A DNA stretch of 64,000 bases from Bacteroidota bacterium (GTDB taxonomy: Bacteria; Bacteroidota; Bacteroidia; Chitinophagales; Chitinophagaceae), in NCBI GenBank assembly GCA_013289175.1, contig JABDAN010000005.1:23016-87015 (forward strand). The letters run 5' to 3'. Numbering within the stretch: position 1 is the stretch's first letter; every line of letters starts with the position of its first letter. Shown one piece after another: positions 6,125 through 10,052 of the stretch. The notes beneath the pieces were generated by a model. That model had not been told where the DNA came from. It ran no database searches and saw only the letters and a program-made list of their open reading frames with translations. Made by a program: the position numbers and the translations under genes.

Positions 6125-6197
<73 letters not shown>

Positions 6198-6201
6198 CAG
6201 T

Positions 6202-6237
6202 TCCTTCCCGTTTCAGGCGGGAGGGATTTTTTTTTGG
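6202..6237 (+). terminator. Hairpin plus T-tract between tRNA-Gly and tRNA-Leu
   Basis: CCTTCCCG-TTTCAGG-CGGGAGGG then ATTTTTTTTT. Confidence 0.7.
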
Positions 6238-6240
6238 TTG

Positions 6241-6326
6241 ACCCTGGTGGCGGAACAGGTAGACGCGCAGGACTTAAAATCCTGTCTGCAGAAATGCGGG
6301 TACGGGTTCGATTCCCGTCTGGGGTA
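6241..6326 (+). tRNA. tRNA-Leu (anticodon TAA)
   Basis: ACCCTGG...CTTAAAATCC...ACGGGTTCGATTCCCGT-CTGGGGT-A with long variable arm. Confidence 0.93.
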
Positions 6327-6332
6327 CTGATT

Positions 6333-6366: not shown

Positions 6367-6518
6367 CCCTCGCTTTCCCGTCAATTTGCAAGTAAAGAGG
6401 CTATTTCTTCCTTAACTTATTTGATTTCCAATAAACCTTTAGGGAAGTAAAGAACTTATTAAACCAAGTTACGATATAAATTTTTAGCTCCAAATTCCTT
6501 GAACTAATTGGCAAACTT

Positions 6519-6697
6519 CTATTTTCGGAATTCCGAAAATCTAATACCAACGCTTATTTTATAACTCCCTAGCTTTTCCTTTTTTACAAATTCTAAAACC
6601 TCTGAACTATGAAAATTAACCCTGTCTCTCTGATTATGAAGCGGGAATCCTCTTTTCATCCAATCGGTTAAAGTAACTTCCGGATAATCATAATTAT
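6519..6697 (-). pseudogene. Fragment of excisionase/HTH_17-like DNA-binding protein
   Basis: Minus-strand frame NYDYPEVTLTDWMKRGFPLHNQRDRVNFHSSEVLEFVKKEKLGSYK..., matching the pattern L-x-x-W-x-x-x-G-x-P...R-x-x-F-x-x-x-E-V; no start codon; probable frameshifted continuation toward about 6400. Confidence 0.5.
6521..6540. repeat. Perfect 20-bp palindrome ATTTTCGGAATTCCGAAAAT
   Basis: Identical to its reverse complement. Confidence 0.9.
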
Positions 6698-6703
6698 TTC
6701 ATC

Positions 6704-7030
6704 CTACAAAAGTGAAATTTTCAAATCCTTATTTGATTCTTCCGGAACCGTTGGAAATATTACCACTTTTCCAAAGTGTTGGTGAATTGAATCCCGGCAG
6801 GTTTTTTTAAATTCTTCATTTTCTAATAGATATTTTGCAATAAAAAATAGATCAACAGTTTTTACAAGTACAATTTTTTCTCGCTCGGCCCCAGATTTAC
6901 ACTTAGCGGTAAAGTCTAATTTTCTGTTTTTGGGGTCGTCAAGTCTCTCTAAGCGTTACCAAACAATATTCCAAATGCTTTTTCCTCCACTTCATCCTTT
7001 GCGAGGTAATAGAGGTTTTGTTGACGTAAT
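6704..7030 (-). pseudogene. Decayed CDS with at least one frameshift (unknown family)
   Basis: Frame a: RQQNLYYLAKDEVEEKAFGILFGNA*; frame b: RLERLDDPKNRKLDFTAKCKSGAEREKIVLVKTVDLFFIAKYLLENEEFKKTCRDSIHQHFGKVVIFPTVPEESNKDLKISLL*; protein-like composition but no intact ORF. Confidence 0.6.
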
Positions 7031-7228
7031 TTAAAAAAAGGGAAGAGCCTAGTTTAGTACCTCATTGAAATATTTATCGATTGACCTTTATTTACATAAA
7101 TTTTTCGTTTCTTTTTCATGGTCATAATCTTCCCGGATTTGACAGGACAAATAAATTTCCAGTGTAAAAGATTAAGTTTTTTTATAATAGCACATTAGGA
7201 GATTGATCGGAATTTAACGGGTAAATTG

Positions 7229-8308
7229 CTAGTATGGGAGACCCGGTATTTTATTTAAATGGTAGGAAAAAAGAAAATGATCATATAGGACAAAAATATT
7301 GGTATCTGCTACGATAAATGACGTGATTTTCATGCCAAGATATTTTGGAATATAAAAACTCAATTTATATAAACCGGTTTTAACGTTGTACACATCAATT
7401 GTTGTCGATTTGTCAAAGATTTCTGTTTCTTCATTATTAGCTTTTAAAACAGAGTGAACAAATATTAATCCATTAGCTGTATAACACTGTTTATTGACAA
7501 AATGAGGTGGTTTATTCATGGTTAGGCTTGAATCAGATAGATAAGCCAAGCCAATTTTTGCCTGACTGGTTGTGTCAATTGTTTTATATGTAGCGATCAG
7601 ATTCAGCGACGAATCAAGAGAGAGAATGGAATTCCGGTAGAAATAAATATATATTATTGACCGAGTGTTATCATCGTAATTGATCATACCATCTGTTGAG
7701 AATATGCCATCCTGTTGTTTAATTAGATTATTTACACTTCTAATAAATTTTGGTGGATCCATATAAATTTTACCAAGTATATTTTGTTTTCTTTGGCGAT
7801 CGTAAGTTCTAATAATCAAGGAGTTTAGCGAAACCGGAATTGCCTGGTCAAATGAAAAACTAGAATCAATATGGTTGATGGTATAATCGGATAAATTTCC
7901 ACGCATGATTAAATGAGCAGAACCCTGAGTAATAAAGAAATGCGGTGGGATAACAGACACAGAAATATTGGCTTGAATCAATCTTGGTTTGACAGGTAGT
8001 TTAATAGAGTAGGTATGGGTATCTGTTAAATTATAGTCGACAGTAAATATTGAAGAGGGGTCATTGATCTTTGCCAAAAATATCTTTGATTCGCCCTTAC
8101 CAGCAAAATAGTAATTGCTTTCTGACAGGTCAATTATTTTTAACGGGGTTATCACGTGAGGAGGATAAAGTCTGATAAATCCATTTTTACGATTATTGAC
8201 TTGGCCAGAAAGTATATACAATAATAATATTGAAGCGACACTAGAAATAAAGCAAGTCGCTAATAACAATAATTTTTTTCTTTTATATGAATCTTTGTTC
8301 CCTTTCAA
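7229..8308 (-). CDS. N-terminally membrane-anchored propeller-like protein linked to MauE/DUF6520-type peptide
   Basis: Single N-terminal TM (KKLLLLATCFISSVASILLLYIL) then beta-rich repeats; the tracked ORF (to 8425) would overlap the peptide gene, so an in-frame TTG at 8308 is preferred. Confidence 0.6.
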   Translation of the reverse strand: MKGNKDSYKRKKLLLLATCFISSVASILLLYILSGQVNNRKNGFIRLYPPHVITPLKIIDLSESNYYFAGKGESKIFLAKINDPSSIFTVDYNLTDTHTYSIKLPVKPRLIQANISVSVIPPHFFITQGSAHLIMRGNLSDYTINHIDSSFSFDQAIPVSLNSLIIRTYDRQRKQNILGKIYMDPPKFIRSVNNLIKQQDGIFSTDGMINYDDNTRSIIYIYFYRNSILSLDSSLNLIATYKTIDTTSQAKIGLAYLSDSSLTMNKPPHFVNKQCYTANGLIFVHSVLKANNEETEIFDKSTTIDVYNVKTGLYKLSFYIPKYLGMKITSFIVADTNIFVLYDHFLFSYHLNKIPGLPY

Positions 8309-8325
8309 TTTGTAAAAATAAAAAT

Positions 8326-8353
8326 CATGTTGACAAAGATTTTTGTCAACATG
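8326..8353 (-). terminator. Intergenic hairpin (terminator/attenuator) between peptide and propeller genes
   Basis: catgttgacaaa-gatt-tttgtcaacatg, perfect 12-bp stem; minus-strand 3' flank ATTTTTATTTTT; begins about 10 nt after the peptide stop codon. Confidence 0.75.
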
Positions 8354-8363
8354 ATCGCAAAAT

Positions 8364-8597
8364 TCAAGGTTTGTACGTATCTGCAGATGTACACGCCATG
8401 TCACCATAATAAATGACGCCTCCAACCGAGCAAATAGCTGACCCTCCAGAACATTTCAAGGGTCTTGTCGTTTGATGACAATAGGGAGAACTAATAAATG
8501 CTGCAGGTTCGAATTTCGAATCAACAGGTTTGGTTTTCAAAGCGCCAATAACGGGCACCACGAAGGCGAGTAATACTACACTGTTTCTTACTTTCAT
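8364..8597 (-). CDS. DUF6520-like short secreted Cys-containing peptide
   Basis: 77 aa; signal-like MKVRNSVVLLAFVVPVIGAL; mature part SPYCHQTTRPLKCSGGSAICSVGGVIYYGDMACTS with 4 Cys. Confidence 0.7.
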   Translation of the reverse strand: MKVRNSVVLLAFVVPVIGALKTKPVDSKFEPAAFISSPYCHQTTRPLKCSGGSAICSVGGVIYYGDMACTSADTYKP

Positions 8598-8687
8598 ACC
8601 AAATATGCTTTTATAATCTTAAAAAGCAATAAACTTTAATTTAGGCCTACTCTATTTCAGGTTTTCGGCATACCCTGGTTAAAGAAT

Positions 8688-9116
8688 TTAAACAGTTGGC
8701 TTGGACCTGTACGTTGGGCTATATAACCATATCGCCGTCCCACTCAATAAAACAAAAAATAAATTAAAGTAGATGTGTTGTGTCCATGTCATATTCTGTA
8801 ATACTCCCCCGCAAGAACAGGGTACATAATCACTGAAATTTAATATGATAAATATATATGTGCTAAACGAGGTCATTAAACAAAATGAAAGATATAGTCC
8901 CACAAGTCGAAGCTTGGAAATGGCCAGTAAAAAGGATATCAAAATTTCCAATGTCGGGATAAAAATAGCTACTGGCCTGGAAAATGCAGTTAGAATGGGG
9001 GACTTACCAATTTCAATTCTAAATTTTGTGAAGTCAAGTAATTTACTGGTCGAGGCATAAATAAATAATACAATGAATGCCAAACAAACAATCTCGATGA
9101 AGTTCTTATTTTTCAC
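8688..9116 (-). CDS. MauE/DoxX-like redox-associated membrane protein
   Basis: 142 aa, four hydrophobic helices, conserved-looking YVPCSCGGVL; GTG start. Confidence 0.75.
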   Translation of the reverse strand: MKNKNFIEIVCLAFIVLFIYASTSKLLDFTKFRIEIGKSPILTAFSRPVAIFIPTLEILISFLLAISKLRLVGLYLSFCLMTSFSTYIFIILNFSDYVPCSCGGVLQNMTWTQHIYFNLFFVLLSGTAIWLYSPTYRSKPTV

Positions 9117-9132
9117 AATAAATTATTTATTG
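9116..9132. repeat. Inverted repeat CAATAAAT-T-ATTTATTG at the MauE-like start codon
   Basis: 8-bp perfect arms read directly, adjoining GTG start; followed by GTCAA-N6-TTGAC at 9132-9147. Confidence 0.7.
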
Positions 9133-9500
9133 TCAAAGATTATTGACTGATATTACTTAGCTGAGTTCAGAAAGTCGGTGTCTAAAACGAGGAAGTGTTG
9201 ATGCCAAAAAAATGTTAACCAAATCTAATCTATACTATACAAAATATCAAAAAAAAAACACTTTGTGAATAAGCATGCTGTTATCCTAAGTGTTTCCACT
9301 TAGTTCATTACAGAATTTCACCGAAATGTAGATTCCAGAAATCATCAAAGAAGTAAAACAAAAAAGGGGAAGTAACTAATAGACATAGAGAAACGGAAAC
9401 CTGTCAATCTCGTTCAAAAGAAGCGGTACAATTTTAACAGGGAAAATTATCCTTTTTTAATTCATGAACCCTATATGAATAGTGCAAGTAAATCACAAAC

Positions 9501-9521
9501 GAAGGGCCGAATCGGCCCTTC
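9501..9521. repeat. Perfect 10-bp-arm inverted repeat GAAGGGCCGA-A-TCGGCCCTTC
   Basis: Read directly; no strong T-tract. Confidence 0.8.
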
Positions 9522-9546
9522 ACTACTAAATTCAAAAAATAAAACT

Positions 9547-9831
9547 ATGTCAGTCAGAAAGAAATGGTCCACGGCGAAAAATAAGCACATCCGCATTGGA
9601 TCTGGAAAGCGGTGTATTTACTAAGATGATCCAAAAAAGATTGCTGAATCATTAAAACATTCCGCCCGTCATAGCCACCGACGAAAAGGAAGCCTTTTCC
9701 AGTCAGCAATGTCCATGCTTAATTTCTATATTAACCGCGGCGGGAAGAATCTATCTGCATCAAAGAAAAAGATATTGGAAAGTGCAAAAGTGGAATTGCG
9801 TAAGAATTTCAATAAAGACAATAGTGCTTAA
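9547..9831 (+). pseudogene. DUF3175-like protein, pseudogene with two compensating frameshifts
   Basis: Frame 0 MSVRKKWSTAKNKH..., +1 frame LDLESGVFTK (9596-9625), then frame 0 DDPKKIAESLKHSARHSHRRKGSLFQSAMSMLNFYINRGGKNLSASKKKILESAKVELRKNFNK; frame 0 has an in-frame TAA. Confidence 0.7.
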
Positions 9832-9917
9832 AATAATGAATAGCCGTTAGCTTATCAGCCTCCTCATGGATGTTATTATTTATATTCAAATCCACTGGTT
9901 AAAGAAGTTTTTATCTT

Positions 9918-10052
9918 ATGATCTTCATGGCATTCAAATTGTACCGGGGGGCTTTCCCAATCGAACCCCCAATCTATAAAAACATAATTTTTGAGTGGAT
10001 TGGAAAAGTTTGCTTGTTTTTGGTGACTATTCTGGCGATTTTTTTAGGTTGA
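9918..10052 (+). CDS. Possible 44-aa single-TM small protein
   Basis: ORF MIFMAFKLYRGAFPIEPPIYKNIIFEWIGKVCLFLVTILAIFLG*; composition only. Confidence 0.35.
   Translation: MIFMAFKLYRGAFPIEPPIYKNIIFEWIGKVCLFLVTILAIFLG

Follow-up and report, generated by a model that had tools for sequence, protein, structure and literature searches.

What do a MauE-family membrane protein, a small secreted peptide with four cysteines and a membrane-anchored β-propeller do together, when their genes stand in a row in the genome of a bacterium of the Chitinophagaceae? We addressed this question for a DNA stretch of 64,000 nucleotides (hereafter referred to as the window). The initial annotation had described a three-gene cassette, in which the MauE-like protein could oxidise the short peptide, with the propeller protein as its partner or receptor.

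The three genes in the window

The open reading frames on the minus strand agreed with that description: MauE, peptide and propeller follow one another and all three frames are intact. The first gene (8688..9116, minus strand, GTG start) encodes a predicted four-helix membrane protein of 142 amino acids that matched PF07291 with 107.2 bits (9.5e-31; the curated Pfam cut-off is 27). Its YVPCSCGGVL segment carries the invariant motif PC[ST]CGG; across 19 relatives, C100, C102, G103, G104, W111, H114, F117 and N118 did not vary. The protein is not of the long, BT_3928-type MauE form of about 370–420 amino acids (8.5 bits versus 250 for NCBIfam NF045576), and in this genome the long form is encoded by a separate gene (L206). 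Among PDB chains, neither MauE nor the propeller had a convincing sequence relative. The window MauE probably forms disulfide bonds and is a candidate for a dedicated disulfide oxidase; a disulfide or oxidase role of MauE is described as speculated in PMC7794033.

The second gene (8364..8597, minus strand) encodes a protein of 77 amino acids with a Sec-signal-like N-terminus that has no lipobox. Its mature part has cysteines at positions 40, 49, 56 and 69, in the spacing C-x8-C-x6-C-x12-C. The peptide is also distinct from a RiPP precursor, which would have a leader and a cytoplasmic modifying enzyme: it has a Sec-type signal, and the sole adjoining enzyme, MauE, is a membrane protein.

The third gene (7229..8308, minus strand, TTG start) encodes the propeller, with one N-terminal transmembrane helix. 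Its longest open reading frame extends to 8425 and overlaps the peptide gene; we took the protein to be 359 amino acids long because homology to its relatives starts near the TTG at 8308. An AlphaFold2 model built from 56 sequences (mean pLDDT 92.3, pTM 0.89) consists of a helix at residues 5–38 followed by an all-β propeller with six or seven blades. The protein matched nothing in Pfam, NCBIfam or PADLOC, and the propeller part of its close relatives also lacks a Pfam model. The best Foldseek matches for this model and for a MauE-propeller fusion were generic propellers, with TM scores of about 0.3–0.6.

The cassette lies 3′ of a tRNA-Gly and a tRNA-Leu gene (6125–6327), within an AT-rich stretch (6400–10000) that has a GC content of 32–35% as compared with ~45% around it, and may be an island or a relocated copy. 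The genes had been described as intact within a decayed tract. Their intactness was borne out; decay was not established, as the flanks at about 6.4–7.2 and 9.1–10.1 kb are AT-rich with few genes, and no convincing remnants of SusC/SusD, TlpA or AraC genes, the usual partners of this gene set (see below), were found beside the cassette. Direct repeats around it formed only short, chance-like families. An imperfect inverted repeat of 16 nucleotides (88%) at 9108–9140 spans the MauE start codon and could affect translation, and a perfect, GC-rich, terminator-like inverted repeat of 10 nucleotides lies upstream of the cassette (9501–9521). A Bacteroidota-type promoter-like site, TTTG-N20-TAGATTTG, is present upstream of MauE (9220..9251, minus strand); it is a weak candidate, as the frequency of this pattern in the window is no higher than chance. 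A sulfatase gene (PF00884, 10753–12534), likely unrelated, lies near the flank, and a gene for a di-haem peroxidase of the CCP_MauG family (PF03150, 22952–24790) lies 14 kb from the cassette, with no link to it seen.

Recurrence of the gene set and its core

Relatives of the window propeller were present in 17 of 200 Chitinophagaceae genomes, this genome included, and MauE adjoined most of them; this genome contains a second propeller copy, 35% identical to that in the window. A profile run over 396 genomes of the phylum found matches in 52. Of 128 propeller loci, some of which are redundant between collections, 116 have a small open reading frame encoding a signal sequence and cysteines within 250 nucleotides on the same strand; on the opposite strand, such a frame was present at 17. 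The peptide gene usually lies between MauE and the propeller gene, or directly after the propeller or fusion gene. When we started from DUF6520 instead, 149 genomes gave few matches; the full-length ones adjoined MauE and a propeller, and two short matches, to the signal only, did not.

At 80 loci fetched with a MauE profile, the propeller was present in 77, a set biased towards propeller loci because the profile had been built from propeller-linked MauE. The unbiased survey was a Pfam-based MauE search of 61 Chitinophagaceae genomes, which returned both long (about 250–420 amino acids) and standalone MauE proteins. Among 34 distinct standalone MauE loci lacking a propeller, 32 had the peptide (30 were scored automatically and two, L196 and L197, by visual inspection). 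The peptides at such loci mostly have two cysteines, whereas those accompanied by a propeller mostly have four: the ratio of peptides with at least four cysteines to those with fewer was 11:5 with a propeller and 7:23 without it (Fisher p = 0.004, kinship ignored). This association points to the two-disulfide forms of the peptide as those served by the propeller.

Thus, the association of these genes is not due to chance, as they recur far above it, and we regard the existence of a conserved module as practically certain. By gene content, this is a conserved set of MauE, a Sec-exported peptide of the DUF6520 type with two to four conserved cysteines and, often, a propeller. The core unit is MauE plus the peptide; the propeller is dispensable at many loci, and the idea of a three-gene cassette as the minimal unit has to be abandoned. 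Two outcomes had been named that would speak against the system, namely a lack of recurrent co-localisation in other genomes and a peptide without a related family profile and conserved cysteines. Neither was observed: other genomes have these genes side by side, many of them with MauE fused to the propeller, and the peptides fall into the DUF6520 group, with two invariant cysteines and a third conserved in at least 90%.

Conservation and variation of the peptides

The designation of the window peptide as DUF6520-like is correct for its family, although the peptide itself had no match in Pfam (DUF6520, PF20130, included), NCBIfam or PADLOC. PF20130 was matched by 51 of 61 peptides occupying the same gene slot. 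A leave-one-out profile, made from the other 60 peptides, gave the window peptide 27.5 bits, the best score among 1000 shuffles of its mature part being 26.4. In the alignment of the 61 peptides, the second and third cysteines are invariant and one more is conserved in at least 90%. Of 116 slot peptides, 103 have exactly four cysteines, with 6–8 residues separating the second from the third in 102 of them.

Between the cysteines the peptides vary strongly. In pairs of loci whose MauE proteins are 60–70% identical, identity was 31% for the mature peptide, 49% for its signal sequence, 45% for the propeller and 63% for MauE. Tandem, slightly differing peptide copies occur at several loci: three in L041 (6602–7965), two each in L022 (2648–3275), L035 and L071 (4193 and 4560), and further ones in L085 (5467–6219).

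The propeller and its fusion to MauE

MauE and the propeller form a single open reading frame at 46 of the 80 loci, mostly in Flavobacteriaceae. The fused protein of ~500 amino acids has MauE at its N-terminus and the propeller, which retains its own transmembrane helix, at its C-terminus. All of 43 fusion proteins matched PF07291, and their MauE half can be aligned with standalone MauE from end to end. In the AlphaFold2 model of a fused relative, the MauE helices span residues 9–34, 50–72, 74–101 and 118–143, and the CxC is invariant in the alignment. These fusions strengthen the proposal that the propeller is a partner of MauE. Its alternative role as a receptor is weakened, because many loci dispense with the propeller while a SusC/SusD outer-membrane receptor pair recurs as a neighbour. 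At one Flavobacterium locus, a MobA/VirD2-type relaxase gene (L070, 2803–4047) adjoins the fusion gene, pointing to possible mobility.

Weak propeller matches in other families (L138–L146), several of which match PF17170 or PF15869, adjoin small cysteine-containing proteins together with a thiol enzyme, which is MauE at some loci and a CPYC-bearing thioredoxin-like protein at others. A grouping of propeller, small cysteine protein and thiol enzyme may be older than the module described here. Some of these small proteins (L138–L140, L143 and L146) have a different leader. At another locus (L149, 4323–4943), a distant propeller is adjoined by three consecutive small signal-peptide proteins with CPSGDSKTC, CPTGDQYRC and CPSGDTFTC, respectively.

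A stem-loop behind the peptide gene

Just past the stop codon of the window peptide lies a perfect 14-bp stem with a 4-nucleotide loop, followed by a T-rich stretch (8324..8355, minus strand), a candidate transcript-end stabiliser or partial terminator. The RNA folds with −18.8 kcal/mol (z = −6.5). Among 25 loci arranged as MauE-peptide-propeller, 13 carry at this position a stem no shorter than 9 bp, as compared with 0.16 expected from shuffled sequences. The stem-loop sequences differ between loci, indicating conservation of the structure. Hairpin elements of this kind usually mean more of the upstream product, and the stem-loop may raise the amount of peptide over that of the propeller.

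Complete loci face a SusC/SusD locus

Upstream of the module there is often an AraC-type regulator, encoded on the module's own strand for 82 of 85 matches. SusD lies downstream and convergent for 101 of 105 matches, and SusC is also there. The same convergent orientation was found for 45 of 46 TlpA-like redoxins, most of which carry CxxC, and for 69 of 73 S9 peptidases. The S9 peptidase was found at 51 of the 80 loci and never occurred together with TlpA in the loci compared. SusC/SusD, TlpA or S9 genes were present at 72 of the 80 loci and at 18 of 22 Chitinophagaceae loci, as compared with 2 of 20 random 10.4-kb Chitinophagaceae stretches. All of these neighbour counts are lower bounds because the matches come from few seed proteins; Pfam confirmed the identities of SusC, SusD, redoxin, AraC, ECF sigma, FecR and S9. 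A module facing a SusC/SusD-type outer-membrane importer suggests a secreted-peptide system.

The second copy in this genome (L228, G000:C20:22000–41683) has this complete arrangement, with ECF sigma, FecR, SusC, SusD and TlpA genes convergent to those for the propeller, the peptide, MauE and AraC. Around the window copy, SusC/SusD, TlpA and AraC gave zero matches within the 64 kb, and S9 was likewise not found there. The window copy is thus an orphan of a conserved Bacteroidota module, whose complete locus in this genome is the second copy. Either the MauE-peptide pair can exist without these partners or the window copy is a relic.

Proposed mechanism and alternatives

The interpretation given in the initial annotation is supported in part and can be extended. 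The explanation that we favour, with a probability of roughly 55%, is that the module serves the production and handling of a small, secreted peptide with disulfide bonds, the window genes being its orphan copy. That MauE acts on the peptide we consider likely, and oxidation is the most economical reading of its predicted role. MauE, with its CxC in the membrane and electrons probably passing to quinone, would oxidise the peptide on its emergence from Sec. The propeller, kept beside MauE, would dock the peptide and help to pair the cysteines of the four-cysteine forms.

The later steps are more speculative. The oxidised peptide might act outside the cell and be recognised by the neighbouring SusC/SusD pair; we hold this recognition tentatively and would give it rather less than even odds, and the high variability of the peptides makes a common ligand role not obvious. 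On re-entry, TlpA might reduce the peptide or S9 might cut it, so that the locus would form a peptide signal or scavenging loop. Such a loop would comprise the release of a Sec-exported peptide made with a dedicated oxidase-propeller enzyme, its recognition by a SusC/SusD pair of its own that is controlled by FecR/ECF sigma and AraC, and its reduction or digestion by the paired TlpA or S9 protein after re-entry; as a whole, this appears doubtful to us.

A different role is conceivable, in which the peptide remains periplasmic and belongs to the SusC/SusD-TlpA machinery as a small subunit with an accessory or redox function, and MauE and TlpA form an electron relay rather than maturing a secreted product. 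The occurrence of MauE on one side and of redoxins, mostly with CxxC, on the other is in keeping with such a relay, as are the lack of a dedicated exporter and the distant propellers that adjoin MauE or thioredoxin-like genes and small cysteine proteins (L146 and L138–L140). Flavobacteriaceae, however, replace TlpA with the S9 peptidase and yet keep the peptide cysteines, and the high variability between the cysteines is ill-suited to a conserved electron carrier. We therefore judge the relay unlikely.

The low identity of the mature peptide in comparison with MauE invites the thought that this small, secreted, disulfide-type peptide serves in competition, as a bacteriocin-like antimicrobial whose disulfides are formed by MauE, with the propeller giving self-protection and SusC/SusD either being a mere bystander or allowing entry into rivals. 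The tandem variant copies would fit this, and the stem-loop would favour an excess of peptide, but rapid divergence does not by itself demonstrate an arms race. Genes for a transporter, a leader peptidase or immunity are not among the recurrent neighbours, which serve import and regulation instead, and the propeller is missing at many loci and has no PADLOC match. An antimicrobial function thus seems quite improbable.

A methylamine-dehydrogenase-like enzyme, with the propeller as heavy chain, the cysteine peptide as light chain and MauE as maturation factor, shares the kinds of parts of MauB/MauA/MauE, and the heavy chains 2gc4, 2bbk, 2j56 and 3l4m did appear at Foldseek ranks 25–35 for the fusion model (TM 0.3–0.4, among many), but generic propellers rank above them, convincing PDB sequence relations are lacking for propeller and MauE alike, the propeller is dispensable, and tryptophan is absent from 61 of 116 mature peptides and occurs twice or more in only 6, which leaves no tryptophan-tryptophylquinone pair; this analogue is largely refuted and retains next to no credence. 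Anti-phage defence was rejected, as PADLOC gave no match.

The preferred reading, a module for a secreted disulfide-bonded peptide, offers testable roles for DUF6520, which has no known function, and for standalone MauE, which has no described role in Bacteroidota; it also connects the two with SusC/SusD receptors. Should the peptide be a ligand, it would be a self-made one for the SusC/SusD pair. With the natural MauE-propeller fusion, the function of MauE proteins could be studied on a single polypeptide.

Relation to known systems

The module is real and widespread, and we found no description of it in the literature searched. No paper naming DUF6520 or NVEALA was found; searches for MauE with SusD returned other subjects only, as judged by title, and DoxX with SusD and Flavobacterium returned none.

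The window MauE shares with the MauE of methylamine dehydrogenase maturation its membership in PF07291, its predicted four-helix membrane topology and a small, exported, cysteine-rich partner. It differs in that no such dehydrogenase genes adjoin it and it is partnered by a DUF6520-group peptide that lacks the tryptophan pair; the module MauE also has the conserved PC[ST]CGG and is often fused to a propeller. With DUF6520 (PF20130), a family annotated as of unknown function, the module peptides share the signal peptide, the conserved cysteines and the gene slot.

Candidate RiPP clusters of Streptomyces found by decRiPPter likewise place MauE beside a small predicted precursor, which MauE was proposed to modify (PMC7794033). 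These clusters differ in their host and in that the precursor was classed as a candidate RiPP and not as a protein exported by Sec; the portions of that paper dealing with them mention neither SusC/SusD nor a propeller.

DUF5128 and TolB-like six-bladed propellers of Bacteroidota (PF17170 and PF15869) are matched by distant relatives of the module propeller that adjoin small cysteine proteins; the propeller encoded in the window, like its close relatives, differs from them in having no Pfam match in the propeller part and in possessing a transmembrane anchor. Finally, SusC/SusD loci with ECF sigma/FecR and TlpA or a peptidase correspond to the locus that each complete module faces. To such loci, in a pairing that no paper we found describes, the module adds a convergent AraC-MauE-peptide(-propeller) unit.
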